Shown here piece after piece: positions 16,153 to 34,241 of a stretch of 38,262 bases of DNA. The notes under the pieces are model-generated. The model did no database searches. It was not told the DNA's origin and worked only from the letters and a program-made list of their open reading frames with translations. The stretch covers positions 1-38,262 of the forward strand of contig CANOEC010000036.1 in the NCBI GenBank assembly GCA_947564735.1, given 5' to 3'. The translations under genes and the position numbers were made by a program. Position 1 is the stretch's first letter. The number at the start of each line of letters is the position of its first letter. This DNA is from an uncultured Lachnospiraceae bacterium (GTDB taxonomy: Bacteria; Bacillota; Clostridia; Lachnospirales; Lachnospiraceae).

Positions 16153-16221
16153 ATTTTCAATCCTTTCTCTGCAATATAAAAAAAGACAATCCGTATAGAC
16201 TGCCTTTCTCCCTGAAAACAG

Positions 16222-17385: not shown

Positions 17386-19297
17386 TTATAGCGTTTCCTC
17401 CTTTCCTTTCGCTTTTCCAATCTCCGGCTTGACAGCTCCAGCCGCCCGTACTTTGAACGCTTCCAATTTTTCTCTTAAAGATGTTCTCTGTGCAGGCTTC
17501 TCAGCCATTACCGCCACAAGTTTCAACCCCTGTGGATTGCCATTGTCCACTGCATAATTGTGTCTTGCGTTTTCAACTGGATATGGTATCGGTGCATCAG
17601 AGGCAGTTTCCACCGTTTCCGGCTTCTCAATGGCATGTTCTTCCTGCCCCGGCTTCTGGACATCATGTCCAGAAGTGTCCTGGCCTTTGTTTTCTTCCTC
17701 CCTGGCATTATCAATATCGGCAATATCGTCCATGCCAAGGGCATCGTCCCCTTTTTCATCCATGTTGAGCAGGGCATTTAAGGCGGAAAGCCGTTCCAGC
17801 TTCTCCGCAAGCTCCGCTTCCTGTGCAAAAGGCTTGTTTACCTCCGTTTTTGCGGTTTCAAGCTGCCGTTCTACAGTTTCCAGTTTGGTCTGTGCTTCAG
17901 CAAGCTGTTTCGGCATGGATTCCAGTGCATGGTTGATACGGGCGATGTTGCCCAGCGGGTCAGAGCCGACTTCAAGGTTATGGGAAAGCTGCCCCTTTAA
18001 GTTCATCACAAATTTGTGGTTGAATGAATCAAAGGACACCGCCATCTTAAACCCGGCATATTCCCCCACTGTGGCAGGCACATTGACGGTTTTCATTTCT
18101 TTGCACATCTCCACAAGTGCAGTCCCGGCTTCTTTCCTGTCCGTATAGACTTTATTCCCGACTTTCATGACAAACTGTTCCTTGTCTGCCGGGAGATTTG
18201 CCTTTGCGGTCTGAATATCCGCCGCCATGCCGCTGATCCGCTCCTTCAGGATTGCGATCTGCTGCGGGTAATGCTTTGCGATATTATCCTCCAGTTTATA
18301 TTTCTGGCTTGTGTGGTTTCCTTTCATCAGCTTCAGCTTTGATACCTGGATGTCGAGATCCATCTTTTCCTTTATATAGGGATTGCCTGTCGCAAGGGCT
18401 TTTACCTCCGCATAGGTGAGCGCCGCTTCGTCCACGTCCTCACAGCTCCGCACCGGGGATTTGCTCGTCATGATCTGCCCGATGAATTTCTGCTTGTTCT
18501 CAATGAGCTGCCAGGAATAGCTGTCGAATGTCCCTTCCGTCACATACCGGAAAATCTTCACTTTCGGATTGAGGTTGCCCTGCCTTAAAATACGGCCTTC
18601 CTGCTGTTCAATATCGGACGGGCGCCACGGCACATCGAGATGATGCAATGCTATCAACCTGTCCTGCACGTTGGTTCCTGCCCCCATTTTCTGCGTGGAA
18701 CCCAATAAAAAACGAACCTGTCCGCTCCTAACCTTGCCAAACAGCTCCGCTTTCCTTAATTCCGTATTCGCTTCATGTATAAATGCGATCTCTTCTGGCG
18801 GCACTCCTTTCTCCACCAGCTTGTTTTTTATATCTTCATAAACATTAAATGTGCCGTCCCCTTTCGGTGTCGAAAGGTCACAAAAAATCAACTGTGTGGA
18901 CTTCTGCTCTTTTGTTTGCTCCCATATCTCAAATGCTTTTCCGACACAGGTTGCTGCTTTGGAGTTTTCACTGTCCGGCAGCATATCATTGATAAGCCGC
19001 TGATCCAGAGCCAGCTTCCTTCCGTCATTAGTGATTTTCAGCATGTTATCCTGATACGGCTCCACAAGCCTGTTGCGTACCGCTTCGGCCCTGTCCGCCA
19101 GTGAGGAAACCATGTCCTGCTGGTACTCGCTCGGCTTTAACACTACGTTTTCATATTCTGCTTCCGGCACAGGCAGCTTCAACATATCCGGTGTCTGGAT
19201 GTCGGCGCTCTCTTTGAATAAAGAGATAAGCTCCGGCAGGTTGAAGAACTTCGCAAACCTTGTCTTTGCCCGGTAGCCAGTCCCCTCCGGGGCCAGT
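17386..19297 (-). CDS. 3' fragment of the split SNF2-like helicase gene
   Basis: The frame is open from the recombinase stop through the junction core to 17386; the first Met is at 19185 (599 residues). It contains the C-terminal helicase half: LIFCDLSTPKGDGTFNVYED, FLLGSTQKMGAGTNVQDRLI and the arginine-rich motif HHLDVPWRPSDIEQQEGRIL. Coiled-coil helices and a linker with one SGHDVQK insert follow. It is the direct continuation of the 5' part at 26147-34230. Joined at the TCTATCGC core the two form one frame of 3,332 codons. Alone it lacks the ATP-binding half, and no good ribosome site is seen before Met 19185, so it is probably not made or not active while the insertion is present. Confidence 0.85.
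17654..17674. repeat. In-frame palindromic element, copy 3
   Basis: The same 21-bp perfect palindrome as at 13709. It encodes TSGHDVQKP in the acidic linker near the end of the helicase 3' fragment. Confidence 0.85.
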
Positions 19298-19323
19298 TCT
19301 ATCGCGTTCCATTTATAGATACT

Positions 19324-20946
19324 TTAGTCGATTTGACCTACGAATTTGTAATAGACAGTCAACTTCTGTTCTTTCACTCCGTTGACCATGACTGGATTGT
19401 GTACTTCTATCTTTTCTATCAGCGTATTCAAAATCGTTGCCGTCAGTTTCTTCATGCCCGCACACTGTGCAAGGCTCTCTGTAAACTGCTCCGCATTGGT
19501 AACAGCGACAGACTTCGCTTTATGCTGTCTTTCCAGTTCCGACAGCTTTTCCTCATTTGCGTCCTGTTCCTGCTCATAATGCGCTGACATCATGGTGAAT
19601 TTCTTTTCCGACAGCCTGCCGCCGGAATAATCCTCATACAGCCGGATATACATCTGGTCAAGTTCAGCGTTCCTCTTTTTGAGTTTCTCAATCTCCGCCT
19701 TTATCTTTTCCGACCGTTCCGCACTGCTTTCATTCATGCTTAGAAGTACGTTGTTTATGAATTTCTCTTTGTCTTTCATTGCTTTTACTGCATGTCTGTC
19801 AATGTCCGCTTTTATAGCGTTTTCAATATCCCCTGCGCTGATCCGGTGTGCAGTACAGAAATTCGCTCCCTTTTTGCGGTAAGTGGTGCATTGGTAATAA
19901 GTCTTGTCCAGTAAATCCCTGTCAGGATTGCGGTTGTCCGTATGTATCAGGAGCGTCTGCCCACAATCAGGGCATTTCAGAAGCCCTCTGAAAATGTTCT
20001 CATAACCGGAAGTACACGGCTTGACTTTTGTGTGCCTGTCAATGCTGTCGTTTGCCGTCTGCCATACCTCTTTGGTGACAACCGCCTCATGCACATTTTC
20101 CAAAACCTCTCTGTCAGCCCGCCGGATATATCCCCTGCCTTTACATTTGAATGTCGGCTTTGAAGTCCCATGCACATACATACCACCTTTGTAAACGGGA
20201 TTGCGGATAATCCTTGTGATAACCTCCTGTTTCCAGTCATACCAGTAATCATCGCTGCCCGTATCATGCTGTAAGAAAAACTCCTGCTTGTAATAGCTCG
20301 GCTTGGGGATTTTCCTCTCATAAAGCACCTTGCCGATACGGTTTGTTCCATACCCTTCCAGTGCAAGGCTGTATATCAGTCTGACAGTGGGTGCAGTCAC
20401 TTCATCAACAATCAAGTGGTTTTTATCCTGTGGATCTTTCATGTAGCCGAATGGTGCAGTCGTTCCCATGAATTTCCCTTCCAGTGCCCGTATATGCTTT
20501 CCGCTCTTGACCTTTTTGGAAATATCTCTCGAATAAAATTCATTCAGTATATTCTTGAAAGGCGTGATGTCAAGTCCTCCGCTTTGTTCGGAATCCACAC
20601 CGTCATTGACTGCAATATAACGTACATGGTGCTGTGGGAAAAACACTTCAATGTATGCGCCACTCTCAAGATAATTCCTGCCAAGACGGGAGAGGTCTTT
20701 TGTGATGACCGTATCAATCTTCCCATCTTCAATATCGGCAATCATTCTCTGAAAACTCGGTCTTTGGAAATTTGTACCGGAGTAACCGTCATCCACATAG
20801 AAGGAGTAAGCCGCTTTCCCCATTTCCCTTGCAAATTTTTCAAGGATTGCCTTCTGGCTCTGGATACTCATGCTGTCCCCGACATTCCCATCGTCCTGTG
20901 ACAGTCTGCAATATAAAGCTGTGATTTTTGTTCCGTTCCCTTTCAT
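19324..20946 (-). CDS. Large serine recombinase (TndX/TnpX-like)
   Basis: 540 residues. The resolvase domain has the catalytic serine at about residue 16 in YCRLSQDD, the DGYSGTNFQRPSF segment and DLSRLGRNY with the active arginines. A recombinase domain follows (about 160-290), then a zinc-ribbon region with CPDCG and C-containing partners near 330-365, and a long coiled-coil (about 400-480) used for synapsis control. The length is close to TndX of Tn5397. GGAGG lies 7 bases before the ATG. It catalyses excision and insertion between short core sequences; here the cores are the TCTATCGC repeats. The stop codon is directly in frame with the helicase 3' fragment. Confidence 0.93.
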   Translation of the reverse strand: MKGNGTKITALYCRLSQDDGNVGDSMSIQSQKAILEKFAREMGKAAYSFYVDDGYSGTNFQRPSFQRMIADIEDGKIDTVITKDLSRLGRNYLESGAYIEVFFPQHHVRYIAVNDGVDSEQSGGLDITPFKNILNEFYSRDISKKVKSGKHIRALEGKFMGTTAPFGYMKDPQDKNHLIVDEVTAPTVRLIYSLALEGYGTNRIGKVLYERKIPKPSYYKQEFFLQHDTGSDDYWYDWKQEVITRIIRNPVYKGGMYVHGTSKPTFKCKGRGYIRRADREVLENVHEAVVTKEVWQTANDSIDRHTKVKPCTSGYENIFRGLLKCPDCGQTLLIHTDNRNPDRDLLDKTYYQCTTYRKKGANFCTAHRISAGDIENAIKADIDRHAVKAMKDKEKFINNVLLSMNESSAERSEKIKAEIEKLKKRNAELDQMYIRLYEDYSGGRLSEKKFTMMSAHYEQEQDANEEKLSELERQHKAKSVAVTNAEQFTESLAQCAGMKKLTATILNTLIEKIEVHNPVMVNGVKEQKLTVYYKFVGQID

Positions 20947-21008
20947 CTTCCTACCTCCATAAAAGGGCGGAACACACTAACCACATTATAGCATGACCGC
21001 CCATAAAA

Positions 21009-21185: not shown

Positions 21186-21206
21186 TCAGTTCCTCCCTTC
21201 AAACGC

Positions 21207-21248
21207 AAAAAAGGACAGTTACAAACTGTTACGTTCATAACTGCCCTT
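21207..21248 (-). terminator. Terminator-like hairpin before the recombinase operon
   Basis: AAGGGCAGTTA and TAACTGTCCTT pair (one G-U) and six T follow on the minus strand. It lies 22 bases upstream of the 58-residue gene, in a leader position, so it could attenuate recombinase expression. Confidence 0.6.
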
Positions 21249-21640
21249 ACGCTGTTTTTTACAATCCAAAAAAATTACAAATCCGCTCTCTCTCTTGACT
21301 TTGCTTTGTAATCCAATAAACCCACATACAAGTGGCAGGTCAGTACGCTGCCCACATCGGAATTGCACCGTCATTTTATGACTGAACTTTTTAAAAATTC
21401 AGAAGTATCATTATCACAGATATGCTTCATCGCCCCGCACAACTGCTGTGCATTTTGTCAGGTTCTTATCGCTCCATGCCCTTGCTTTTAGTTCAATTCC
21501 AAACTATTGCAGGCATATCATGGCGCACTTACTTAGTGGCTACACATATCCTCACGTCCTGTATGTTTTGCGATATTCAGTTGTCAAATTTTCTTGTAAA
21601 AAATCCTATATCTGTATGGTATGTTTCCCTCAAAAAACAT
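21219..21640 (-). other. Leader region with two short coupled frames and a possible promoter
   Basis: On the minus strand a TTGACA (21582-21587) is the only good promoter box, with a weak ATACAG 17 bp on. Downstream lie a 19-codon frame (21371-21430) and a 51-codon frame (21219-21374) overlapping it by ATGA; the second ends inside the terminator hairpin. Neither has a convincing ribosome site or known product. The layout resembles an attenuation leader. Confidence 0.35.
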
Positions 21641-21970
21641 CTACAGTTCCAGCTTATACGCCCCGTATTTTTTGAGGACACGTTTCAGGATTTCTTTATC
21701 CTCTCCCTCTGCTGCATCATACATTTTTTTGAGTTTCTCCTGTTCGTAGGGAGTGAGCGTATTGTTGTACGGCTTGTAGCCCTCCATGATGAAAATCCCC
21801 CCGCCTGCTCCCGGCTTTGTATATATGGGATAACCATATGTGAGAGCCGCAACGTCATTTAATATCGTGCGCCTTGCAACACCAAATTCCTGCGCCAGTT
21901 CCCTTGACGTAACATGACCGTTGACCACAAGGATACTGACAATCTCCATTCTGCGGTATGCGGCGGTCAT
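21641..21970 (-). CDS. HTH-domain DNA-binding protein
   Basis: 109 residues from the ATG at 21970, chosen for GGAGGGAACAG upstream. Residues 1-60 form a DeoR/HTH_11-like winged helix (RRMEIVSILVVNGHVTSREL, FGVARRTILNDVAAL), followed by a wing (YPIYTKPGAGGGIFIMEGYK) and a helical C-terminus (LTPYEQEKLKKMYDAAEGED). Proteins of this kind are frequent in Tn1549-like and related elements and probably regulate element genes. It lies between the palindrome array and the recombinase leader. Confidence 0.8.
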   Translation of the reverse strand: MTAAYRRMEIVSILVVNGHVTSRELAQEFGVARRTILNDVAALTYGYPIYTKPGAGGGIFIMEGYKPYNNTLTPYEQEKLKKMYDAAEGEDKEILKRVLKKYGAYKLEL

Positions 21971-22102
21971 GCTGTTCCCTCCTTCCGTCCAGCCCCCTTT
22001 ATTATAGTAAATAGCAAATAGGCAAAAAACCTTCCTATTTACCAAAACTTTTTCAGAATTTTTTTGTCAGAATGGGCAGTAACGCCCGTATTGGTTTTGG
22101 GC

Positions 22103-22213
22103 AGCCTGACTATGCAGGCTAAAACCCGCTTGCATTCCATTTCTGGAATAGCAAGCACTGCCTGTGTCATGACACAGGGCGAAATAGCAAGCACTGCCTA
22201 TGGACGTCCATAG
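22103..22213. repeat. Array of four palindromes with a 17-bp direct repeat
   Basis: In order: AGCCTG/CAGGCT (22103-22120), ATTCCA/TGGAAT (22134-22149), a perfect 18-bp palindrome CCTGTGTCATGACACAGG (22161-22178) and a perfect 16-bp palindrome CTATGGACGTCCATAG (22198-22213). Before each of the last two stands the identical AATAGCAAGCACTGCCT (22147-22163 and 22183-22199), 36 bp apart. A G/C run (CCCCCTAACCCCC) follows at about 22280. This may be an origin of transfer or other cis-acting site. Confidence 0.65.
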
Positions 22214-22606
22214 ACCGAATTTTCACAGATTTTTCCTTGCGGAACATCTGCAAAAATTGGCTTGCGCTAAGGGAATAAATCCCCCTAACCCCCTTTGAAA
22301 AAACTCTTGTTTTTCGTAGAGATAGCTTGTAAAAATGAAGAATTTTTGTGCAGAAAATATGTTTGCTCAGCAACAAATTTTCTCCAAAATATTGAAACCT
22401 TTTTAACAAAACAGCACAAAAATTTACATAAGAAAAGTGTACTGTATCGAAGTTAATTCTCCCATTGCAGTACACCAAAATATTTTGCTATTTTCTTCAA
22501 CATTCAAGTCACATACAAATCATTCAATGATCTCGATCAACTTCATTTTGTTCTTTCCTCTTTTCCAAAACCATTTCCGTAGGAACTGATTTCATTTTGA
22601 TAATAT
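22214..22606. other. Non-coding stretch with an 8-bp inverted repeat
   Basis: No convincing gene. GTGTACTG (22437-22444) and CAGTACAC (22468-22475) are perfect inverted repeats that mark the point where base composition turns AT-rich, so this may be the edge of the transporter cargo. Confidence 0.35.
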
Positions 22607-22747
22607 TTATTTGCGAACATTGATTAGCGTTTCTTGCTTACATTTGGGGCAATACAACGAAAAATATTCAATCACTGTATCTTCTCGAATTATTAGTCGT
22701 GTTTTGTTTTGGCAAACTGGGCATAAAACACATTGAACTGTTTTCAT
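22607..22747 (-). CDS. Cysteine-rich KTR-domain protein
   Basis: 46 residues (50 if the ATG at 22759 is used). The sequence MKTVQCVLCPVCQNKTRLII, then YCPKCKQETLINVRK, is the Cys-rich KTR family: two CxxC knuckles around NKTRL, likely binding one zinc. The family is common on Gram-positive conjugative elements and has no known function. It is slightly shorter at the C-terminus than usual. It starts just after the ABC permease stop and may be its last operon gene. Confidence 0.8.
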   Translation of the reverse strand: MKTVQCVLCPVCQNKTRLIIREDTVIEYFSLYCPKCKQETLINVRK

Positions 22748-22765
22748 TTTTTGAAACATCCGAAA

Positions 22766-23407
22766 TTACGAATGTATTTTGGTATAGAAGTAAACTGACA
22801 GCTTATAAGAAATTGCTCCCATAATCACCAAAATAACTGCCCCTATAATAATTGCATGATTTACAAACCATAACGCTAAACTCGTAAGATCAACATTAGC
22901 TTTCTTTAAGACAAATGCAACAGCTAAAAGCATCATAACGGAAAATATCATTGTAAATGAACCGCCATTGGCTCCCATTAGATAATTCGTTGGAATCGTC
23001 AGCAGACCATAAAAAAGTGAGAGGGCAAATCCAGCTAACGAAAATTTCACGCATAGGTCAAATGTGAGTTCAACATAAAATAATGTCGATACAGTACACA
23101 AGCAGAATGAAATAATTGACATTACAATAGCAATAATCATAAAAAATAAATATCTACTTGTAATGATTGTTTTTCGAGTAGTAGGCAAAGCAATCGCCAT
23201 TTTGTCCCATTTACATTGAGTATCATATACCATAATCGTTTTAGGTATGTCCACTAATAATAATGGTAAAAAAATTGCTACATACATTGCACCTACCGAT
23301 TGAAAATAAATTATCACAGCCAGTGCAATCAAAGCGATAAAAACATAGTTTATAGGACGTATGCGTTCTCTCATAACATAAAAATCTTTTTGAATTAATC
23401 CTTTCAT
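22766..23407 (-). CDS. ABC-2 type transporter permease
   Basis: 213 residues with about six hydrophobic spans (for example 20-50, 84-110, 118-140, 150-170, 185-205), the size of ABC-2 permeases paired with YtrB-like ATPases. The start MKGLIQKDFYVMRERI is typical of this group. Its ATG overlaps the ATPase stop (ATGA), so both are made together as a membrane exporter or immunity transporter. The substrate is unknown; relatives are linked to cell-wall antibiotics and bacteriocin self-protection. Confidence 0.85.
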   Translation of the reverse strand: MKGLIQKDFYVMRERIRPINYVFIALIALAVIIYFQSVGAMYVAIFLPLLLVDIPKTIMVYDTQCKWDKMAIALPTTRKTIITSRYLFFMIIAIVMSIISFCLCTVSTLFYVELTFDLCVKFSLAGFALSLFYGLLTIPTNYLMGANGGSFTMIFSVMMLLAVAFVLKKANVDLTSLALWFVNHAIIIGAVILVIMGAISYKLSVYFYTKIHS

Positions 23408-24267
23408 TTTGTTTCCCCCTTTATATAAAACAGCATAATATCATCAATATTCGCAGGTTCTACTATTGCCTTTGGATAACTTTTTTCTGCTTTATGGCGA
23501 TTACGGACAAGGGCTTTATACTGAAAATCCTGTTTGCGAAAAGCTATGATTTCCGACTTATCCATCTTCTCAAATATTGCAGAACCGCAGATTATAACAC
23601 CATAATTATCAATAATCTCATCTTTGGAATAACTGAAAATCAATTTACCATTGTGTATAAAAGTGACATAGTCAGCCACCTTCTCTAAATCACTTGTTAT
23701 ATGCGTAGAAAACAATACAGAGTGATTTTCATCCTGAACAAAATCAATAAGAATATCGAGAATATCATCTCTAATTACAGGATCAAGTCCACTGGTAGCC
23801 TCATCCAAGATTAATAGTTCTGCTTCATGAGAGAGAGCAACAGCAAAAGCTAATTTGACTTTCATTCCCCTTGAAAAATCTTTAATTTTCTTTTTGAGGG
23901 GCAACTCAAATTGTGTAAGATAATTTTGATACTCGCTGCATTGCCAGTTTGAATATATACCTGCCATGCACTTTCCAAGTTCAACAGGTGTCAATATATC
24001 TGGAAAGTGATTTTCATCAAATATAATCCCAATCTTATTTTTGATAAAGACTTCTTCCGATATATTATCTTTCCCGAAAATAGCAACTTCTCCATCGCTC
24101 ATTGTAATTTCATTAAGTATACAGTTGATTGTCGTGGATTTTCCAGCTCCGTTTTCTCCAATTAACCCCATAATAACACCACGAGGAACTGTGAAACTCA
24201 ATTTATCAAGAACAAAATCCCCATAGTCTTTTGTAAGGTTCTTAACCTCCAAAATATTATCTGTCAT
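23404..24267 (-). CDS. ABC transporter ATP-binding protein
   Basis: 287 residues. Walker A GENGAGKST (about 37-45), the signature FSRGMKVKLAFAVAL (a variant with SRGMK), Walker B LLILDEATSGLDP and the switch histidine in STHITSDLEKVADY are all intact. The C-terminal 70 residues form the extra domain seen in YtrB/BcrA-type ATPases. It directly follows the GntR stop and overlaps the permease start, so the three genes form one operon controlled by the GntR protein. Confidence 0.95.
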   Translation of the reverse strand: MTDNILEVKNLTKDYGDFVLDKLSFTVPRGVIMGLIGENGAGKSTTINCILNEITMSDGEVAIFGKDNISEEVFIKNKIGIIFDENHFPDILTPVELGKCMAGIYSNWQCSEYQNYLTQFELPLKKKIKDFSRGMKVKLAFAVALSHEAELLILDEATSGLDPVIRDDILDILIDFVQDENHSVLFSTHITSDLEKVADYVTFIHNGKLIFSYSKDEIIDNYGVIICGSAIFEKMDKSEIIAFRKQDFQYKALVRNRHKAEKSYPKAIVEPANIDDIMLFYIKGETK

Positions 24268-24645
24268 TTAATCATCCTCCTGATATAATAATGTAAGCAA
24301 CCCAACAAGCTTATCGAAATCAATACCGCTTGCACGTGCTATTTCAATGGCTTCTACAAACCGTTCTTCGATTTTTTTCTGTTGTTCTTCTAAGTAAAAA
24401 TCTTGGTTTTGTGCTGATACATAGCACCCTTTGCCCGCTGTACTTTCTATAAAACCTTCGTCTTGCAGAGTGGCGTATGCTTTTTGAACTGTCAAGACAC
24501 TAATTTGCAATGATTTTGCAAGAGAACGTACAGACGGAATAGCATCACCAGCCTTTAATTCACCACTCATAATAGAAGATTTAACCTGTGAGGCAATTTG
24601 CTCATATAAAGGTCTACTCGATTTATTACTTACGACAATCTCCAA
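24268..24645 (-). CDS. GntR-family regulator, YtrA type
   Basis: 125 residues. The winged helix is clear (RPLYEQIASQVKSSIMSGEL, AIPSVRSLAKSLQISVLTVQ, GKGCYVSAQ). A short helical tail replaces a ligand-binding domain, which defines the YtrA subfamily of ABC-transporter regulators. It is first in the operon. A perfect 8-bp dyad overlaps the -10 of its promoter, so it likely represses the operon until an antimicrobial or envelope signal appears. Confidence 0.93.
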   Translation of the reverse strand: MEIVVSNKSSRPLYEQIASQVKSSIMSGELKAGDAIPSVRSLAKSLQISVLTVQKAYATLQDEGFIESTAGKGCYVSAQNQDFYLEEQQKKIEERFVEAIEIARASGIDFDKLVGLLTLLYQEDD

Positions 24646-24679
24646 AATTTCACCGCCAATCCGTATCAGTGTGTTGCTA

Positions 24680-24730
24680 ACTGTATTGCTATAACAAATA
24701 CAGTATATAGCACATAAACAAAACTGTCAA
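24680..24730 (-). promoter_or_regulatory. GntR operon promoter and operator
   Basis: On the minus strand consensus TTGACA (24725-24730) and TATACT (24702-24707) are 17 bp apart. The dyad ACTGTATT (24680-24687) and AATACAGT (24697-24704) overlaps the -10, a classic repressor position. Confidence 0.85.
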
Positions 24731-24853
24731 TAGAATTCTGTACATTTTTCAATTACGTGAGGAGAAAAATATGAACCCCAAAAATATGTAGAGCGAATCT
24801 TGAGGATTTGCAGGAAATATTAGAATTACAATATCTATCGTAGCTTTTACTGT

Positions 24854-24962
24854 ATTCCGAAAATCAAAATTCTTGAAGTCTATTTCCTCTACTTCTTGAA
24901 TTCCGAAAACCGGAACTCTTGAAGTCAGATTTTTGAACTTCTGCAATTCCGAAAATCGGAAT
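24854..24962. repeat. 46-bp tandem repeats with TTCCGA palindromes
   Basis: The unit beginning ATTCCGAAAA starts at 24854, 24900 and 24946, an exact 46-bp period; the second half has CTTGAAGTC twice. The last copy forms the palindrome ATTCCGA-AAA-TCGGAAT. Translated on the minus strand the repeats look like the FRxSEVQKF linker of replication initiators, so they may be origin repeats inside a decayed rep gene. Confidence 0.55.
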
Positions 24963-25143
24963 GTAACAATACTGATAATAATTAGACTGATTATAGTCAT
25001 ACTGAATCAATCATATCAATCCTATCCTAAATCCTTCCCTTTGCATTGTGGACTATGTGCATAACGCCTGCTACAGCGGAATCTCCCTCATTCCTATCTG
25101 TCATTACAAAAGAAAAATGTTTCTATCCTGCTATTTCCTTCCT

Positions 25144-25512
25144 TTACGCCTGTGAACCACCTACAAAATTCTTGACATAGATAATATTCGGCTTTCCCAA
25201 TCCCTGCCGGACACTCTCAATCAATCCTATACCTTTATCGCTATCAAGCTCCCGCATCAGCTTTACAGCCTTGTCATTGGCGCAGTGAAACTTGTCCTTT
25301 ACCTCGTCAACCGTAAAATATATGTATGCCCTCCCATTTCTGTCAATCCACCCGTTTTTCTGTGACAGTTCCATACGGTCAATCATCATTCCATAGAGTA
25401 GTTTTGCCCCGATTGACAGCGCATCAAACTGTCTTTCCGTAAATAACTGCTTTGGTATGCGGTAAAAAGCATACTGGCTGCTCTGTTTCCCATAAAAATA
25501 TTCAAAATCCAT
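25144..25512 (-). CDS. RepA_N-type replication initiator, N-terminal part
   Basis: 122 residues from the ATG at 25512, preceded by AGGAGAG; the frame is open 16 codons further. It begins MDFEYFYGKQSSQYAFYRIP and contains LFTERQFDALSIGAKLLYGM and YFTVDEVKDKFHCANDKAVK, the DNA-binding N-terminal domain of RepA_N initiators. Full initiators are about 250-350 residues, so this protein ends early; the 46-bp repeats 200 bases downstream may be what is left of the middle of the gene. It could still bind DNA. Confidence 0.75.
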   Translation of the reverse strand: MDFEYFYGKQSSQYAFYRIPKQLFTERQFDALSIGAKLLYGMMIDRMELSQKNGWIDRNGRAYIYFTVDEVKDKFHCANDKAVKLMRELDSDKGIGLIESVRQGLGKPNIIYVKNFVGGSQA

Positions 25513-25675
25513 TACTTGGCTCTCCTTTCCGTCATTAAGTGGCTTTTTATCTGCTTTCATTGTCTGGCATGGAATTATCCCTCTTTTCCTTTTTATTTTA
25601 TTTTTACACGATAATTAACGTGAGTTTTTGAATCAAAATACCTTATCCGTAATAATCTTTATCCATGCACTACAA

Positions 25676-25734
25676 ACAAGGAATTATGCCCACAGGGCTG
25701 TCCGCTACACATATCCTTAAATGCAATTCCTTGT
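25676..25734. repeat. 10-bp inverted repeat between two element genes
   Basis: ACAAGGAATT (25676-25685) and AATTCCTTGT (25725-25734) flank 39 bases that include GCTACACATATCCT (25704-25717), also found at 21539-21552 in the recombinase leader. It may be an RNA structure or shared regulatory site. Confidence 0.45.
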
Positions 25735-25749
25735 ATCTGCATTTTTACA

Positions 25750-26031
25750 TCAATTATCGCTGGAATTTAGCTTTGACATTCTCTGCCTTGCCTGTTCCCT
25801 CTGTTTATCGCTTAATACTCTTGGCTTACGGTAATTAACGTATGTTTTCGGCATAGAATAGGTTTTGTCAATGTCTGTCTGATTTATCAGCTTGTAAGTG
25901 TCAGGGTAATCAGCCACAAGCCGATCCAGTTTGCGCATCACCGATTTATCTCTTGTGTAAACCGTTGCTGTCTGTTCTGCGGTATTGTAATTAACTACCG
26001 TTTCCATCTCATATTTTGTTAAATTCGTCAT
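25750..26031 (-). CDS. Conserved small protein of conjugative elements
   Basis: 93 residues. It starts MTNLTKYEMETVVNYNTAEQ, has strand-like segments (TVYTRDKSVMRKLDRLVADY) and a basic tail (RKPRVLSDKQREQARQRMSK). TAGGAGGATAT precedes the ATG. I recall similar proteins in Tn1549-type ICEs beside replication or regulatory genes; their function is not known. It is the gene nearest the right end of the inserted element. Confidence 0.7.
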   Translation of the reverse strand: MTNLTKYEMETVVNYNTAEQTATVYTRDKSVMRKLDRLVADYPDTYKLINQTDIDKTYSMPKTYVNYRKPRVLSDKQREQARQRMSKLNSSDN

Positions 26032-26127
26032 GCTTCCATATCCTCCTACTTTTTGGTATCAAAAAAGGACTGCCCTCTGCAATCCTCTTTTTCAGTGTGT
26101 TCCTGCCCTGTATTTTGTTTGATGTAC

Positions 26128-29100
26128 CTATAACTGTGACGCAACATCTATCGCTGTCTGGGTTTCTCCAAAGGAAGATGCCCAACTGTCGAAATGCCCA
26201 AGCCCCAGCTTCTGAAGCGTACCGTACTGGAGATAGCGCATATTTGTGTAAAGCTCCGTCATACTGTTAGAGATCGGTGTACCTGTGGCAAAGGTCACTC
26301 CCTTGCCGCCTGTTATCTCATCAAGATACTGGCACTTCGCAAACATATCGCTTGATTTCTGTGCTTCCGTCTGTGCGATGCCTGCCACGTTCCGCATCTT
26401 TGTGTATAAGAAAAGATTTTTGTAAAAATGGCTTTCGTCTACAAAAAGCCTGTCAACACCAAGCTGCTCAAAGGTCACTACATTGTCTTTCCTCGATGTG
26501 TCATTCAGCTTTTCCAGCCTTGTCAGGAGTGATTTCCTCGTTTTCTCCATCTGCTTAATGGTATAGCGTTCCCCATTGTCGGCTTTCGCCTGTTCTATGG
26601 CAAGCTCTATCTCACTGATCTGCCGCTCTATTATGGCTTCCTGCCGCTCTATGGAAAGGGGGATCTTCTCAAATTGAGAATGTCCGATAATGACTGCATC
26701 ATAATCGCCTGTGGCTATCCGGGAACAGAATTTCTTCCGGTTGGCAGGCTCAAAATCTTTCTTTGTTGCCGCAAGGATATTTGCGCCAGGATAGAGCCGC
26801 AGGAAGTCACTCGCCCACTGCTCTGTAAGGTGGTTCGGCACGACAAATAAGCTCTTTTGGCATAAGCCTAACCGTTTGCTCTCCATTGCCGCCGCTGTCA
26901 TTTCAAAGGTCTTGCCCGCCCCTACACAGTGCGCTAATAAGGTATTGTCCCCATATAAAACGTGTGCGACTGCGTTTTTCTGGTGGGGCTTTAGCTCAAT
27001 GTCCGGTGTCATGCCGGGAAATTTCAGGTGCGCCCCGTCATATTCCCTCGGCCTTGTGGAATTGAACAGCTTATTGTATTTCTCCACCAAGTCCTGCCGC
27101 CTGTCCGGGTCACGGAATACCCAGTCCTTAAAGGCTTCCCGTATGGTGTCCTGCTTCTGCGCCGCAAGGGTGGTTTCCTTTTTATTAAGGACTCTCTTTT
27201 CCTTCCCGTCCTCCACAACTGTGTCATATACCCGGCTGTCCTTCAAGTTCAGCGAATCCTCTAAGATCTGGTAAGCGTTCCTGCGGCTGGTTCCGTAAGT
27301 CATGTTCACCAGGGAATTTCCATAATCCGCATTTTTGCCTTTTACATTCCACTGCCCTGTCACGTCAGAAAACTGTATGCCCATGATGTTCCTGTCAAAT
27401 AAGTGCTGCGGTGTTTCAAAGATGTCACGCATGAAATCTTCCAGGTACTCCGGCTTTACCCATGTTGCGCCGATACGAACCTCGATCTCGCTTGCGTCAA
27501 GCTCCTTTGGCTGTACCTGCGTGAGCGCCTGCACATTCACGGTGTATTCCGGGTGCTTCTCCGCATAGATTTTCGCCGTTTCCAGCTTGTCACGGACATT
27601 GCCGCTTAAATATTCGTCCGCTGTCTCCCACTTGTCCGTTACCGGATTCTGGAAGATAACCCCGGTCAGTTCCTCTTTTATTGTATCAATGCTTTTCCCG
27701 GACAGTTCCGCCATATAGTCAAGGTCAACCCTCGCCTTTTCCGACAGCGACACCGCAAGGGCTTCGGTTGCCGTGTCAACGCTTGTGACAACCTCCGATT
27801 TCTTGATCGTGCGCTTTGTAAACATATCCGCCTTGCCGACAAATTTCCCTTCCTCGTCTGTCTTTTCAAGGGAGCATAGCAGGCAGTAGCTGCTGTCCTG
27901 GTTAAATGCCCTCTTGTTGGTCTGTGAATTGATCAGGCCGTACTTTTGGGAAAAAGCATCGTACAGCGAATTTAATTCCGCCTGCTTTTCCTGAATCACC
28001 GAATCCGGATATTCCTCCAACTGCACATTGATCAGCTCCTGCGTACAATCCCGGATGCCTACCATGCCCTTAATGCGCTCCAGCATGGAATCTTTCATGT
28101 CCACAGGCTTCATGACGGAGTTTTCCCGGTAATAGACCTTATCCTCCACAAGCGTATAGCTGTAATTCTTCACATCCGGGTCTGCCGGGATTATCTGCTC
28201 TGAAAGGTCATCATCCGGCATATCCAGCTCCGTTTCCTCAATCTCCCCGTCAATGCGGCTGATGGCTTCCGCAAGCTGCTCCGCAAAGGGTCTTGTGGTG
28301 TCGGGCTGGCAGGTGCTTTCCATACCATAAGGGCCGGAGACCATCTCCATCTTCCCCACGATCATCTCCGGGTGTTCCGCAAAATAACTGTTCATGGCGA
28401 TGCCGTCTGCATCTTCCGAAAGATGCACCCAATCCGGCTCCAGATCCATCACCCGGTCACGTTTCTTCAGGAATAAAATATCGGAAGTGACTTCCGTCCC
28501 TGCGTTCTCCTTAAAAGCGGTATTCGGTAATCTGACCGCCCCTAAAAGCTCCGCCCTCTGTGCAAGGTATTTCCGCACTTCCGGGCTTTTCTTGTCCATT
28601 GTACCCTTGCTCGTGACAAAGGCAACTACACCGCCCGGCCGCACCTTATCTAATGCCTTTGCAAAAAAGTAATCATGTATCAGGAAGTTGTTCTTGTCAT
28701 ACTGCCTGTCAGCCACCTTGTACTGGCCAAAAGGCACGTTGCCTACTGCCACGTCAAAGAAATCGTTTGGATAGTCCGTTTTTTCAAAGCCGGAGATTTT
28801 GATATTTGCTTTTGGGTAGAGCTGTCTGGCAATCCGTCCGGTGATCCCGTCAAGCTCCACACCGTACAGCCTGCTCTCCTGCATCTTCTCCGGCAGACAG
28901 CCGTAAAAGTTCCCGATTCCCATTGCAGGCTCCAATATATTTCCTTTTTCAAAGCCCATGTTCCCTAACGCTTCATAAATGCTGCGGATAATCGTAGGGT
29001 TTGTATAGTGGGCATTTAAAGTACTCTCCCTTGCGGAAGCGTATTCTGCATCCGACAGCAGGCTTTTCAATTCCTGATATTCGCCCGCCCATGCGCTTTT

Positions 29101-32100
29101 ACTCTCGTCAAAAGCATCGGCAAGGCCGCCCCAGCCCACATACTGTGATAAAATCCTTTGTTCCTCTGGTGTGGCGGTACGGTTCTCGCCTTCAATCTTT
29201 TCCAGCGTGCGGATCGCTTCTATGTTCCTCCGGAATTTCTCTTTTGGAGAAAACCCTGTGCCTGCCCTATCCATGCCAGGACTGTCTTCTGTGATGTGGA
29301 AGTTTACGGCATTGGACTTATCAACCTGTGCCGCTTTCTTTGGCTCTGCCTGTTCTGGTTCCCCGAAGTGCATCTTTTCAATAACAATATCATAGGGAAG
29401 CCCATTTTTATCACCCGGATATATCGTCGATTCCGTAGTTATGGGCGTCTCTGTCAGGGTATTCTCTGCTTCTTTTACCAACAGACGCTCAAAGTTCTCT
29501 TTGCTTTCCACCCGTGAAATCGGAAAAGGCAGGTTCAGGTCAAGGAGCTGCACTTCCCTGTCGGAAATATTTTCAATGATATACTTTGATCCCTCAATGG
29601 TTACGGTATCGCCAATCTGATAATCCGGCTTCTGGACATCATGTCCAGAAGTTTCCTGTTCCGGCGCTGACAGTTCACGTTCTTTTTGGGAAAAATCTTT
29701 CCAGACCCTCCCTGAAACAGCATGGAAATAAGAGGATTCATCTTCCATGATCTCATACTCAAGTTCCTTCAGCTCCTCAAGGCTTTCCGCCCCTGCTATC
29801 TTCTCATAGTATTTAAAGTACACCGCTTCCCTGCTGAGGATCACTTCCAGCCGTTCCAGCTCCGGCTCCGCCATACGTTCCCATATATCGTCCTTTTCCG
29901 TATGGATGGTAAATCCTTCCCCATCATCGTGGTATTGCAAGGTGTATTGCAGGGAATCATGCTCCCCACGTATGTCGCACTCAAAGTCATAGACCGTAGT
30001 CCGGGAACCTGAAAAATACTCCCGGTTGACCAAGACCAGGTTCTTTACATCTTCTGCGGTCAACGGCCTCTCTGCGCCCTCCATTTCATCGGCATCAATA
30101 TCCGGATAATAATCGCCCCCTTCAAAGCGTGCGTATACTTCCGCTTCGTGGCGGTCAATATCCCTCATGGCTTCTATATTGAGGTAATCCATCTCTATTT
30201 CTTTCCTGTCTGGCTTATGGTCATACTCAAAATGCGTATTCCCATTTACCTCTGCATAGAAGAAATCCCTGTCACCTACGAAATTGCCAAGCACATATAC
30301 ATCACCGTCTGCTGTCCATTCATCCGTCTTGATGCACTCCTGCCCATCAATGGAAATGGTTTCCGGCTTCTGGACATCATGTCCAGAAGTTTCCTGCCCT
30401 GTCTGCTCCCTTTTATATCTACTCTGTTCCTGCATGGACTGGAATACCATCTCATCATATCCAATCACATCAATCAGATCCGCATGGGTATCTATGTATT
30501 CCTGTGCCAGCTCACGATTGATAAAGAAACGGTTATGCTCCGGGTAAGGCACAAGAAGCCCATCCTCCCCTGGTGTCACAAGGCGGTAGCGTACTCCTTC
30601 CCTGCCATCGGCATATTGGTGGGTGTAAAAACCGATCTCCGGCTCTGAAAAATCCTCTGATGATTCCAGTGCAACCGTAATCTTTTCCACTTTCTCTGCA
30701 TTATCAGCGGCAAATTCTTTTGCGTAATCCTCCCCGTCCTCTTTTGCCCCGTCCAGTGTTTCCGAAACAGAAACGGGGCTTGTGTCTGTACGGTGGGTAT
30801 TGTATAAGGCATACCCCTCCGCTTCCTTATCAATCCAGAGAAATTCCCCATTAGGCAGTTTTGCCGCCCATTCCGTAGGCTGTCCGTTATCATCGTCCAT
30901 CTCATGTACGGTATGCCAGTCTAATTCCCCCTCGTAAATATCCGGACTATCATCCTGTGCCTGTTCTGCTTCTGCCTGCGCCGCAAGCTCTTTCTCACGC
31001 TCGATATATCTCCTTGCTTGGTTGATGAATCCATTCAGGACAGCAGGGTGGGAAACGGCTACTATATCCCGGTTCTCATACATCGCATACGGTTCGATGG
31101 ACTTTGCCCATTCCTTGTTTTCCGGGGAAATCCTGTCCTCCTGGCTGCGATGCATGACCGTATTTGCAAGCACATAGCTGACACGCTCGATACCATATTC
31201 CTTTATGACATCTTCTGCCGTTCCTTTGGGCAGGCGGTATCCGTCGAAGTTTTCAGCGATAGCCCGGTCAATGGCATCCTTGCAGGAAACCTTTGTGTCA
31301 CGCTCTATCTTTGCCTGTGCTTTTTCAAGCTCTTTCTGCTCCTGCTCCACCTTATACTCCGCATAGGCTTCCTTGCCTTTTGGGGATAAATACTTATCTT
31401 CCTGAATGAGCTTGCGGATACGCTTTTCCACCACTTTCCAGGACAACAGGATTTCTGTATACGGCTCCATGATGCTGCCTTTTTCCAGCCTGATTCCTTT
31501 CCCATCATGGTTTTCATAACTATGGTCAGCCCCAGCAAGCGCATGTGTGCTGCCTCCTATCCCATATTCGTTTTTCAAAAAATCTGCCGTTTCCTTGCTG
31601 CTATGCCCTTCCATGAAATAATCATAGATACGAAAAGAACCATGTGCAAAGCCGCTTCCCCTGCCGAGCCTGTGGTCTATCTCGTCCTGCGTGATGAAAT
31701 CCTCTTTTTTCACTTCCACATTTTCAGCTACCGGAAAAGTTTTCTTTTCTAAAAGCAGATTATCAAGCTCTGCCCGCAGTTCTTCTTTTGGCATGACAAA
31801 ACGGACACGCATCTCTTTCTCTCCACTTTCAAGCTGTCCTAATGCCTTATCCATATGTGAAGCAATTAAATCAATACCTTCCGGTGTCGATAACAGTTCC
31901 GTGAGCTTTGCATGGGAATCCAGATAATTTGCCGCTTTCAGTTCCAGTTCTTCCGGCAGCTCCCCCATGCCGTCACGAAAGAAAAAATAAAGGCGATCCG
32001 CAATGCGTCCACGCTCCACCTCGTCCACAAGGTAGGCTTCATTTGCACCCATATATGTGCCGTTTTCCACCTGCGAGCGTATCTGCGCTTCAATTTCCTG

Positions 32101-34230
32101 CCAGCTCATGGTGAACCTTGGATTTTCTAATGCAGATGTGCCATACCCGGCAGTCATTCCCTGCTCATTGAACCATACGGCTACCTGTCTGCCCTCAAAT
32201 TCAAAGCCTTTGCCCGTAGTTCCATATTCCTTTTTCAGAAACGCCGTCATTTCCTCCGTTGTCTTGCCCTGCTGGTACTTGGCATAGATACGCTTGCGGC
32301 TGTCATCCCTGCCGCCCCCGCTCCGCAGGATCGTGTCGAGCTGCTCTTGTGGCAATATTTCCCTTTTCGATTCAAGGTTTGTTTTTTCTGCCGGGATAAT
32401 CCCCTGCTCCGCCTCTTTCATGGCAATGCTGCCTACCTGCTCTGAAAACATGGAAAAAAGGTCAAGCTGCTGGTACATCCCATTTGTGTCGATCTGCTCC
32501 GCTTTCTCCCCCGGAAGCAGATATACATCGTCCTCCATATAAGAGTTGACAAAGAAACGGGCATCCTCCCATGATAAAAGCACTTCATTTTCTGCCCCTG
32601 CCCTGCCGCTCATGTTGATATGAAGCCCCTCATCATTGGCATGGAAGCCTATAGAAGTACCCGCCACATTCAGCCCATAATATGTACCGAAATGGAAACA
32701 GTTCTTAAAATACTCCGTCTGCAGCATTGTATCCTGCTCCATAGCAAAATAGCCTGCGATCTCCGGTCTTTTATGGATAAGGAAATCATCAGAGCATAAA
32801 AGCCCTTTTTGAATCTCCATTGCTTTTTCAGCAAAGTCCAGATTATCCAAAAAAGAGCTGGACAATGAATCTTCTCCATTATCCAGCTTTTCTGTTTCCA
32901 TATTCTGTTGTGTATCGCTGCTTACAGGCTGTAGACCAGCTCCGTCAGTACGGTTTCCTCCGCTGAGTGCCTGATGTTGTTCATCTTCGCCACCCACTTC
33001 ATCTGATCGGACGCTTTCAGGGCTTCGTCCACTCCCTCGGCTTTCGCCATCTGCTCCGTCAGGAAGTCCATCCGTTCCTCTGCCTGCTTCTGTATCTCCA
33101 GACAGTGCGCTTTCAGTCCGCCCGTCATCAGCAGGCCGCTGTAGATCCCCCTCCGGTGTTCCTTCAGGTAATTCTTCCGCATCAGTCCGTACTTGGTCAG
33201 CGGTTCCTCCGGTTCGCTGTCCGGAATCAGGTTGGGTATCAGATAGTTCCCGTTCTTCTCGTATGTCAGTTCCATATGCAATGCCCTCCGTTTCTATGTG
33301 GTTGGTATCTGTTTCCGTTTGTGGTTCGTTTTTACTTTCACGCTTTAAAGCATTATAGCGTGCCTCTGATACATTTGCAAGCACTTTTTGAGGATTTTTT
33401 TCAGTATTGTCGGCCTGTGCCTCATTCGCCTTTTCTTTCGCTTTATTCCGGGCAATCTGGCGGTCATAAGCCGCTACCGTCCTTCCGATCTCCATGAGCA
33501 GGGGCTTACACATATCCGTGGTGGCATTGCCTACCACGGATAAAGCCCTTGTCGTGTTAAATTCACTGATATAGTCAAAATTCAGCTCGTCTTTCCAAAA
33601 GTCCATATCAGCACCACACCGGGACAAAAGGGTGTATGCAATGCTTGCGGAAAGCGTTTCCCGCAGGCGCAGCCCCACATTCAGCTCGTCAAGCTCCTCT
33701 AAGAAGCTGCCCTCTTTTGCATAGGACATCTCCGGAAGAAGCTCACTGTAATAATCTTCCGCAATCCTCCCCGCAATCTCCATGAGCCTGCCTTCAAAGG
33801 AATTGTTCTTATCCGTTGTGCCGTATGTCTTTTCAAGCTGTGCCAGCACAGCGGCCTTGTGTTCCTCCCGCAGTTCCCACAGGTACGGGTCTTTCCCTAT
33901 CCGCCTTGACTTATGCACGTCCGACACGTCAAAGACATATTTCAGCCTTGGACGCTCGCTCTCCCTATCAAAAAGCGCAATCCCCTTTGCCCCACGGTTT
34001 ACCCAGCAGAACATTTTTTCATTCCATATTTCCATAGTGGCGCAGGCTTTTGCATCCGGTCTTTGTGCATAGATGAGCATCTGATCCTCAAATGGGTATT
34101 TATACAGCCTTGCGGCGGTAGTCAGGTATTTTGCCCATTCCTTCCCATTTTTTGACACCTGGTTTGCCGTTTCCCCCGCAAGCATGGAAATCTCGTGGTA
34201 TTTCTTTGAAACAAGATATTCTCCTGCCAT
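26128..34230 (-). CDS. Giant polyvalent protein: methylase and SNF2-like helicase, 5' part of split gene
   Basis: 2,700 residues from the ATG at 34230 (AAGGAGG upstream); codons below 26147 belong to the insertion. The N-terminus (1-270) has KNGKEWAKYLTTAARLYKYP and FCWVNRGAKGIALFD as in related ICE proteins. A low-complexity linker (about 270-450) hides tnpV in another frame. Repeated modules follow (FLKKEYGTTGKGFEFEG; FLKNEYGIGG), then a DUF3849-like part, two SGHDVQK inserts, an N6-adenine-methylase-like domain (ILEPAMGIGNFYG near 1765; VGNVPFGQY, not NPPY, near 1825), Walker A (AHCVGAGKTFE near 2430) and DESH (near 2596). The helicase is cut before its second half, so the present product should lack a complete motor. 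Intact relatives are thought to protect or process incoming ICE DNA. Confidence 0.88.
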   Translation of the reverse strand: MAGEYLVSKKYHEISMLAGETANQVSKNGKEWAKYLTTAARLYKYPFEDQMLIYAQRPDAKACATMEIWNEKMFCWVNRGAKGIALFDRESERPRLKYVFDVSDVHKSRRIGKDPYLWELREEHKAAVLAQLEKTYGTTDKNNSFEGRLMEIAGRIAEDYYSELLPEMSYAKEGSFLEELDELNVGLRLRETLSASIAYTLLSRCGADMDFWKDELNFDYISEFNTTRALSVVGNATTDMCKPLLMEIGRTVAAYDRQIARNKAKEKANEAQADNTEKNPQKVLANVSEARYNALKRESKNEPQTETDTNHIETEGIAYGTDIREERELSDTQPDSGQRTGGTADQVRTDAEELPEGTPEGDLQRPADDGRTESALSGDTEAGRGTDGLPDGADGESRGSGRSPESVRSDEVGGEDEQHQALSGGNRTDGAGLQPVSSDTQQNMETEKLDNGEDSLSSSFLDNLDFAEKAMEIQKGLLCSDDFLIHKRPEIAGYFAMEQDTMLQTEYFKNCFHFGTYYGLNVAGTSIGFHANDEGLHINMSGRAGAENEVLLSWEDARFFVNSYMEDDVYLLPGEKAEQIDTNGMYQQLDLFSMFSEQVGSIAMKEAEQGIIPAEKTNLESKREILPQEQLDTILRSGGGRDDSRKRIYAKYQQGKTTEEMTAFLKKEYGTTGKGFEFEGRQVAVWFNEQGMTAGYGTSALENPRFTMSWQEIEAQIRSQVENGTYMGANEAYLVDEVERGRIADRLYFFFRDGMGELPEELELKAANYLDSHAKLTELLSTPEGIDLIASHMDKALGQLESGEKEMRVRFVMPKEELRAELDNLLLEKKTFPVAENVEVKKEDFITQDEIDHRLGRGSGFAHGSFRIYDYFMEGHSSKETADFLKNEYGIGGSTHALAGADHSYENHDGKGIRLEKGSIMEPYTEILLSWKVVEKRIRKLIQEDKYLSPKGKEAYAEYKVEQEQKELEKAQAKIERDTKVSCKDAIDRAIAENFDGYRLPKGTAEDVIKEYGIERVSYVLANTVMHRSQEDRISPENKEWAKSIEPYAMYENRDIVAVSHPAVLNGFINQARRYIEREKELAAQAEAEQAQDDSPDIYEGELDWHTVHEMDDDNGQPTEWAAKLPNGEFLWIDKEAEGYALYNTHRTDTSPVSVSETLDGAKEDGEDYAKEFAADNAEKVEKITVALESSEDFSEPEIGFYTHQYADGREGVRYRLVTPGEDGLLVPYPEHNRFFINRELAQEYIDTHADLIDVIGYDEMVFQSMQEQSRYKREQTGQETSGHDVQKPETISIDGQECIKTDEWTADGDVYVLGNFVGDRDFFYAEVNGNTHFEYDHKPDRKEIEMDYLNIEAMRDIDRHEAEVYARFEGGDYYPDIDADEMEGAERPLTAEDVKNLVLVNREYFSGSRTTVYDFECDIRGEHDSLQYTLQYHDDGEGFTIHTEKDDIWERMAEPELERLEVILSREAVYFKYYEKIAGAESLEELKELEYEIMEDESSYFHAVSGRVWKDFSQKERELSAPEQETSGHDVQKPDYQIGDTVTIEGSKYIIENISDREVQLLDLNLPFPISRVESKENFERLLVKEAENTLTETPITTESTIYPGDKNGLPYDIVIEKMHFGEPEQAEPKKAAQVDKSNAVNFHITEDSPGMDRAGTGFSPKEKFRRNIEAIRTLEKIEGENRTATPEEQRILSQYVGWGGLADAFDESKSAWAGEYQELKSLLSDAEYASARESTLNAHYTNPTIIRSIYEALGNMGFEKGNILEPAMGIGNFYGCLPEKMQESRLYGVELDGITGRIARQLYPKANIKISGFEKTDYPNDFFDVAVGNVPFGQYKVADRQYDKNNFLIHDYFFAKALDKVRPGGVVAFVTSKGTMDKKSPEVRKYLAQRAELLGAVRLPNTAFKENAGTEVTSDILFLKKRDRVMDLEPDWVHLSEDADGIAMNSYFAEHPEMIVGKMEMVSGPYGMESTCQPDTTRPFAEQLAEAISRIDGEIEETELDMPDDDLSEQIIPADPDVKNYSYTLVEDKVYYRENSVMKPVDMKDSMLERIKGMVGIRDCTQELINVQLEEYPDSVIQEKQAELNSLYDAFSQKYGLINSQTNKRAFNQDSSYCLLCSLEKTDEEGKFVGKADMFTKRTIKKSEVVTSVDTATEALAVSLSEKARVDLDYMAELSGKSIDTIKEELTGVIFQNPVTDKWETADEYLSGNVRDKLETAKIYAEKHPEYTVNVQALTQVQPKELDASEIEVRIGATWVKPEYLEDFMRDIFETPQHLFDRNIMGIQFSDVTGQWNVKGKNADYGNSLVNMTYGTSRRNAYQILEDSLNLKDSRVYDTVVEDGKEKRVLNKKETTLAAQKQDTIREAFKDWVFRDPDRRQDLVEKYNKLFNSTRPREYDGAHLKFPGMTPDIELKPHQKNAVAHVLYGDNTLLAHCVGAGKTFEMTAAAMESKRLGLCQKSLFVVPNHLTEQWASDFLRLYPGANILAATKKDFEPANRKKFCSRIATGDYDAVIIGHSQFEKIPLSIERQEAIIERQISEIELAIEQAKADNGERYTIKQMEKTRKSLLTRLEKLNDTSRKDNVVTFEQLGVDRLFVDESHFYKNLFLYTKMRNVAGIAQTEAQKSSDMFAKCQYLDEITGGKGVTFATGTPISNSMTELYTNMRYLQYGTLQKLGLGHFDSWASSFGETQTAIDVASQL
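29630..29650. repeat. In-frame palindromic element, copy 4
   Basis: The same 21-bp perfect palindrome; read as ETSGHDVQKPD in the helicase protein, between two domains. Confidence 0.85.
30368..30388. repeat. In-frame palindromic element, copy 5
   Basis: The same 21-bp perfect palindrome; read as ETSGHDVQKPE in the helicase protein. The flanks (CCGG before, GTTTCCTG after) also match copy 4, so about 30 bp moved as a unit. Confidence 0.85.
32922..33275 (-). CDS. tnpV: TnpV-family protein encoded out of frame inside the helicase gene
   Basis: 117 residues in the frame shifted by one base relative to the helicase. It begins MELTYEKNGNYLIPNLIPDS and continues LTKYGLMRKNYLKEHRRGIY, then GLLMTGGLKAHCLEIQKQAE and ERMDFLTEQMAKAEGVDEAL, ending MKWVAKMNNIRHSAEETVL. 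This is the full pattern of TnpV, a small protein carried by Tn4451-type and other clostridial transposons, function unknown. It has its own ribosome site, GGAGGG, 8 bases before the ATG at 33275. In the same stretch the helicase frame reads as a Gly/Asp/Glu/Ser-rich linker (about residues 318-436). Both frames are open throughout. Confidence 0.8.
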   Translation of the reverse strand: MELTYEKNGNYLIPNLIPDSEPEEPLTKYGLMRKNYLKEHRRGIYSGLLMTGGLKAHCLEIQKQAEERMDFLTEQMAKAEGVDEALKASDQMKWVAKMNNIRHSAEETVLTELVYSL

Positions 34231-34241
34231 CTGCAACCTCC

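Follow-up and report, generated by a model that had tools for sequence, protein, structure and literature searches.

Genes nested on one strand and translated by internal initiation are classically represented by E within D of phiX174 and by Rz1 within Rz of phage lambda, and long overlapping genes of bacteria are often young, orphan and doubted. The locus described here lies in DNA from an uncultured Lachnospiraceae bacterium (GenBank assembly GCA_947564735.1, contig CANOEC010000036.1, forward strand); the window is the whole stretch of 38,262 nucleotides that was analysed. Sequence comparisons make it very probable that its tnpV is a genuine gene with an initiation of its own, lying on the same strand within the ArdC-N/methylase/SNF2 helicase gene of Bacillota conjugative elements, and that this dual coding is old and maintained. 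The full same-strand nesting is like that of the phiX174 and lambda pairs, but the host gene of the present pair spans about 8 kb, and free-standing relatives of its nested gene exist.

Each partner of the pair also has described relatives. The free-standing TnpV of Tn4451/Tn6104-type elements belongs to the same family, PF14198, whose whole profile is matched by the window copy; those genes stand separately beside a recombinase, a relaxase or other cargo, whereas the window tnpV is entirely enclosed, in a different frame, by another gene. The snf2 helicase gene of the ICESa2603/Tn5252 superfamily, as found in a streptococcal record, is of the same family as the host open reading frame (ORF), and, with its methylase-like and SNF2-type stretches, the host ORF may be compared with the polyvalent proteins of conjugative elements (surveyed in PMC5512222). 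A term search of the main text of that 2017 survey gave no TnpV, overlap or alternative frame. Published work treats snf2 as an integration target, and the nested gene goes unmentioned in the available parts of the three reports (PMC9815147, PMC12942858, PMC5357655). The overlapping genes ano and pop of Escherichia coli O157:H7 and an overprinted orphan gene are likewise cases of one DNA encoding two proteins; to judge from the accessible portions of those papers (PMC5960689, PMC7103648, PMC4683798), the first two run antisense and the third arose recently, whereas tnpV and the helicase share a strand, both belong to widespread families and the pair is present in at least two classes. No report of a tnpV nested in a helicase gene stood among the literature matches listed, which did not cover most subscription journals or bioRxiv preprints. 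The exact word TnpV occurs in 20 papers of the literature searched, several of which treat unrelated subjects. We rate overlapping genes as a known kind of arrangement, and the tnpV/helicase nesting as new and unusual in its age and breadth.

A complete tnpV in a second frame of the helicase gene

The features of the nested locus are as follows.

32922..33275, minus strand: tnpV coding sequence (CDS), 117 amino acids plus stop, nested out of frame in the helicase gene; called from the Pfam match, the ratio of nonsynonymous to synonymous change (dN/dS) and the phase flip.
33284..33289, minus strand: Shine-Dalgarno-like GGAGGG, with an 8-base spacer (33283..33276) ahead of the tnpV ATG.
26128..34236, minus strand: host ORF, 2702 amino acids from TTG, first ATG at 34230; ArdC-N-like N-terminus, DUF3849, methylase-like stretch and first half of an SNF2-type helicase.
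32925..33273, minus strand: stretch of the host ORF over tnpV, residues about 322-438, a hydrophilic Gly/Asp/Glu/Arg linker; called from the translation and from pooled homologous linkers.

A first-pass annotation made from the letters alone had placed a full-length, 117-residue TnpV-like protein here, on the helicase strand (which it did not name; both are on the minus strand) in a shifted frame, with its own GGAGGG eight bases before the ATG, and had described the helicase frame as a Gly/Asp/Glu linker. All of this holds. The tnpV codons run from 33275 to 32925 and the stop occupies 32924..32922, the ribosome site reads at 33289..33284, and helicase codons begin at tnpV codon position 3. PF14198 covers the ORF with 141.9 bits against a Pfam gathering score of 27 (E 9.5e-42, profile positions 1-111 of 111); an NCBIfam scan of the window TnpV assigned no family. 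The EGTPEGDL linker motif, which the first-pass annotation took to recur in related proteins, is read from the bases that encode the TnpV segment YLKEHRRGIYSGLL, and this accounts for its recurrence. Across the host ORF, Pfam matched DUF3849 and ResIII/SNF2, with Eco57I below cut-off, and PADLOC gave weak methylase lines. Homologues of its N-terminus carry ArdC-like or SNF2-related annotation, yet Pfam ArdcN gave no match there.

The nested arrangement among homologues

A scan of genome contigs gave 134 TnpV relatives, the best 80 of which were kept (loci are cited by L number); these 80 are nearly all from Lachnospiraceae or related Clostridia and were joined by one viral contig. The helicase frame is free of stops across the TnpV match in 77 of them, and likewise in the viral contig, while the third frame has 11-20 stops in each of the 80. 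The remaining three, L024-L026, are free-standing tnpV genes with 4-6 helicase-frame stops. Among the 77, L080 has helicase-frame stops upstream, and L027 has lost the end of tnpV, its helicase frame breaking soon after; at L021, L030, L044, L063, L072 and L077 the helicase frame ends less than 1.2 kb downstream of the tnpV match. The tnpV frame is thus intact in nearly all homologues examined, L027 apart, and the earlier suggestion that the overlap is old and kept is borne out.

The same picture emerges when the search starts from the helicase. Its N-terminus matched 61 of 245 Clostridia genomes at 97 places, and 70 of these were examined (30 returned as loci and 40 fetched), the 27 omitted being short matches with E of 6e-9 or worse. 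In 62 of the 70, TnpV occupies one and the same relative frame and the helicase reads through it without a stop. Three others contain TnpV; at L119 and L181 the helicase frame stops within or ahead of it, and at L128 the frame runs to the end of the retrieved sequence; two are without TnpV (L177, and L185, which is a different ArdC-type protein); and three could not be assessed (L176, L179, L184). A sample of the phylum, 149 genomes, gave 17 loci. Nine of these are long helicase frames that contain TnpV in the usual relative frame, and six of the nine are new and come from three genomes outside the class. Altogether, TnpV is nested in six of seven further full-length helicases from four out-of-class genomes, and seven shorter or other ArdC-type proteins of the phylum sample are without it. 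By these tallies the nesting is a trait of this helicase lineage rather than of ArdC proteins in general, and is common without being universal. The helicase was also read in eight plasmid records (Cohnella, Monoglobus, Ruminococcus albus, Enterococcus wangshanyuanii, Streptococcus agalactiae, E. faecalis, Virgibacillus and Listeria), and every one of them has a TnpV-like ORF in the same frame, scoring 25.8 to 157 bits with the profile built in this analysis.

An open and hydrophilic helicase frame

We defined tnpV genes as linked by homology to the helicase N-terminus upstream, which gave 136 unique linked genes (68 from the Lachnospiraceae-type set) and 48 unlinked ones. All linked genes but one lie in a single frame (135/136, the exception being L080 with its upstream stops), and 133 of the 136 have no helicase-frame stop. 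The corresponding frame has 2-16 stops in 45 of the 48 unlinked genes; the three free of stops are L188 and two that are themselves embedded, L136 and L178. When the genes were recoded synonymously, stop-free draws averaged 0.06 with the codon usage of linked genes and 0.0004 with that of unlinked genes. For the helicase frame to acquire a stop, a tnpV codon with T as its last base must be followed by AA, AG or GA. At the third position of tnpV codons T makes up 9.0% in nested genes against 26.4% in unlinked genes, and G 48.8% against 22.2%, while helicase position 3 has 25.9% G and 27.7% T. Third-position G in tnpV exceeds that of helicase position 3 at the same locus in 131 of 131 loci, five damaged or doubtful rows of the 136 having been omitted. 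T occurs at stop-making sites in 0 of 4012 nested cases against 169 of 980 free ones, a comparison that is partly circular, since nested there means absence of stops. Hydrophobic residues account for 11.8% of the pooled homologous linkers, 34.1% of the N-terminal domain and 27.4% of the same frame in unlinked tnpV. The order of linker residues thus appears to drift or nearly so, and openness and a hydrophilic make-up are what is kept.

These properties also bear on whether the long frame is used at all. An ordinary operon could instead encode the helicase as two proteins, with the tnpV cistron between them and the continuity of the long frame an accident, and the gene table of Cohnella (L206), which lists a TnpV CDS and none for the long helicase frame, would agree with this, although that table omits pseudogenes and is incomplete. 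The table of Monoglobus (L207) has the same pattern; its helicase frame has an early in-frame stop, so that a pseudogene is as likely there as an annotation conflict. An operon would not need an open frame, however, and the helicase frame runs unbroken through 133 of 136 linked genes as against 3 of 48 unlinked ones, two of those three being embedded. The avoidance of T and the hydrophilic shift are specific to the helicase frame, and other records annotate a single long SNF2 CDS across the region. We regard the operon as extremely unlikely.

Selection on the two frames

The pattern of substitution shows which frame the shared DNA follows. For this analysis 71 of 78 nested loci (seven with short flanks were dropped) yielded 66 different segments. 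Compared in pairs, these differ on average by 0.28/0.20/0.48 at helicase positions 1, 2 and 3 upstream of tnpV, by 0.32/0.18/0.14 within the overlap and by 0.29/0.25/0.49 downstream; helicase position 1 is tnpV position 3, and the overlap therefore evolves as a tnpV gene. At a resolution of 30-codon windows the switch of phase coincides with the tnpV start and stop, and among 55 different sequences followed over 4.3 kb from the tnpV start the phase is flipped in 4 of 36 windows, exactly the four on tnpV. The flip repeats in all six lineage groups, which were chosen by hand and two of which hold few differences; the streptococcal snf2 group has 0.26/0.14/0.11 inside tnpV against 0.16/0.11/0.36 outside. 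A chance ORF is rejected by the PF14198 match, by the stop counts of linked and unlinked genes and by the flip in six of six groups.

The first-pass annotation had left two readings side by side, a tnpV captured out of frame and turned into a linker, or true dual coding, and had proposed that change in the two frames be compared. Over 931 pairs, dN/dS in the tnpV frame is 0.20 (95% 0.14-0.27) at sites that change the helicase. In the flanks the helicase frame gives 0.12 and the pseudo-tnpV frame 0.71 and 0.58. Within the overlap the helicase-frame ratio at TnpV-silent sites is 0.26 (0.18-0.71), with only about 2.6 doubly silent sites per pair. Were tnpV a fossil, inserted into the helicase gene and used only in its shifted reading as a linker, one could understand the low complexity of the helicase frame over it and the existence of free tnpV genes elsewhere. 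Such a relic predicts the reverse of a constrained tnpV frame beside a nearly neutral linker frame, and it fits poorly with a TnpV that is intact across very divergent loci and has retained its Shine-Dalgarno and ATG. The two-frame dN/dS rejects it, leaving the mere captured linker extremely improbable; of the two original readings it is dual coding that is supported, by the purifying selection in the tnpV frame.

Several results weigh against this reading. Within the overlap the helicase frame has a ratio of 1.19 (0.83-1.73) at TnpV-changing sites, with no sign of purifying selection on the linker, and absolute dN/dS values are rough since the control pseudo-frames give 0.58-0.71 and not 1. 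A helicase from the fourth out-of-class genome (L226) and the same kind of helicase at L177/L218 have no detectable nested tnpV, and could be either losses of tnpV or descendants of a state that preceded it. The S. agalactiae copy (L210) scores 15.9 with PF14198 against the cut-off of 27, and its top Pfam line is another family, also below cut-off. Elsewhere the profile relationship extends well beyond the window, in agreement with the family assignment first made by eye: 8 of 10 chosen remote nested ORFs reach the PF14198 cut-off, and L146 (25.6) falls short. PHROGs placed four of five TnpV-like proteins in a family of unknown function and gave none for L210; PADLOC had no match for TnpV.

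Initiation of TnpV

The start codon nearest to that expected from the profile is ATG in 104 of 107 nested tnpV genes. Shine-Dalgarno pairing there has a median of -8.2 kcal/mol, as against -2.8 for 9356 control ATGs, and is -4 or lower in 96% of nested genes and 30% of controls. Folding of positions -25 to +20 is weak, with a median of -2.7 at tnpV starts against -6.5 for 642 control ATGs. At many distant loci the site is GAAAGGA, translated as Glu-Arg in the helicase frame. The homologues thus retain both the start and the ribosome site, as the first reading of the window would have it, and TnpV would be expressed from an internal start.

Another way to reach the tnpV frame would be for ribosomes to slip out of the helicase frame and make an ArdC-N-TnpV fusion with no internal initiation. 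In many loci some codons upstream of the ATG are also open in the tnpV frame, and a Shine-Dalgarno within a gene can stimulate frameshifting; the shift needed here is +1, however, which is the less usual direction. In most loci of the window clade a tnpV-frame stop lies about six codons or fewer before the ATG, the ATG is kept in 104 of 107 genes within a weakly structured start region, and a free copy, that of L217, has its own AAGGAGG and ATG. Frameshifting is very unlikely to be the route. Under nested dual coding, ribosomes would read the long helicase frame straight through, and other ribosomes would initiate at the internal Shine-Dalgarno and ATG to give TnpV. Selection preserves the amino acids of TnpV. 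It acts on the helicase frame chiefly at the last base of each tnpV codon, where T is avoided before AA, AG or GA and G is preferred, and so keeps that chain open and hydrophilic. The nesting is old and inherited along with the helicase, with free tnpV genes intermingled in the tree.

What TnpV may do

The weakest step of this explanation is the work of TnpV itself, which is probably that of a small accessory factor acting on the DNA of the element and made in step with the helicase. A profile search of solved structures with TnpV gave nothing below E 0.4. A more specific proposal is an excisionase-like factor that helps a recombinase to remove the element. Likeness to lambda Xis had led to the postulate that the TnpV of Tn4451 takes part in excision (PMC3158075), and at L214 a free tnpV comes directly after a large serine recombinase gene, the two overlapping by 4 bases. 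On the other side, a serine-recombinase-like ORF on the same strand lies beside only 6 of the 48 unlinked tnpV genes, for which the flanking DNA is short, and nested tnpV is also found on Enterococcus, Listeria and Virgibacillus plasmids, for which reason excision is arguably not the only work of TnpV. We consider the excisionase role doubtful. Free tnpV follows a relaxase gene at L024 and L026, and other free copies adjoin various genes. At L213 a free tnpV stands just upstream of a tetracycline-resistance gene annotated tet(O), and at L090 one stands upstream of a gene that looks similar by eye, with a helicase-like piece directly before tnpV.

Nested and free forms

Distances between tnpV sequences and between the corresponding helicase N-termini are strongly correlated over 56 loci (Mantel r 0.853, none of 2000 permutations as high). 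Repeated independent insertion at one place is disfavoured by this co-variation and by the single frame of 135 of 136 genes. A tnpV tree of 116 rows requires eight changes between nested and free, at least seven of them forced by well-supported branches, and free groups such as L024-L026 and L200-L205 fall within nested ones. The tree has few columns and only a midpoint root, so that nested-first is not established. In the helicase tree the rows labelled as lacking tnpV sit among nested ones; among them L179 is only a contig end, and the contig of L176 ends 171 bases past the helicase match.

One locus appears to record a departure. At L217 (minus strand, 933-5000) ParA- and ParB-family genes are followed by a free tnpV (PF14198, 79.5 bits) with 12 stops in the former helicase frame. 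The helicase beyond it has no tnpV in the 171 bases to the contig end, whereas in its relative L175 tnpV starts 10 bases past the match. The best matches of the L217 TnpV and of the L217 helicase are alike L175 and L164. At L217, it seems, tnpV moved out of the helicase gene and now stands on its own upstream of it. We suggest tentatively, and with rather less than even confidence, that the nested state is the old home of TnpV, having arisen or settled early in Bacillota inside the polyvalent helicase gene and diversified as its partner; the free TnpV of Tn4451-type elements, mobilizable plasmids and resistance cassettes would be repeated escapees, and annotation of one frame per locus would have hidden one gene or the other.

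Other features of the window

The chain of ArdC-N-like, methylase-like and SNF2-type parts is broken by an insertion in the window, and its second piece lies apart from the first.

17386..19185, minus strand: C-terminal part of the helicase (Helicase_C), parted from the N-terminal ORF by the inserted element; called from the profile match and ORF order.

The ResIII/SNF2 and Helicase_C parts are both matched by profile. The interval 19185-26128 encodes a large serine recombinase, at 19324..20946, as well as an ABC transporter pair and a GntR-family regulator. A helicase split by an inserted element recalls the published role of snf2 genes as integration targets. Near-identical ETSGHDVQKP-like pieces repeat in the linkers of both helicase parts (26128-34236 and 17386-19185, minus strand). 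A second giant ORF of 1606 amino acids (11428-16248, minus strand) has ArdcN, YodL, DUF3849, LPD16 and a nucleotidyltransferase domain, and the stretch retrieved around its N-terminus (L231) contains no TnpV. Six ORFs that overlap larger ones gave no Pfam family, in a window that lists 88 ORFs of at least 80 codons. Other contigs of the source genome hold more tnpV copies, with C10 split over two frames, C19 in two short pieces and C7 a partial match.

Implications

The nested pair is kept in at least two classes of one phylum, with one of its frames belonging to a recognised family, and its natural variants, well over a hundred in number, would allow site-by-site tests of how DNA is shared between two frames. 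A second gene has gone unnoticed in the helicase genes of much-studied elements, including streptococcal snf2 and the Listeria and enterococcal plasmids. Since the helicase gene carries this second gene, insertions or knock-outs in the overlap stretch may have affected two genes. The arrangement also offers a concrete route by which annotation can lose a conserved gene.

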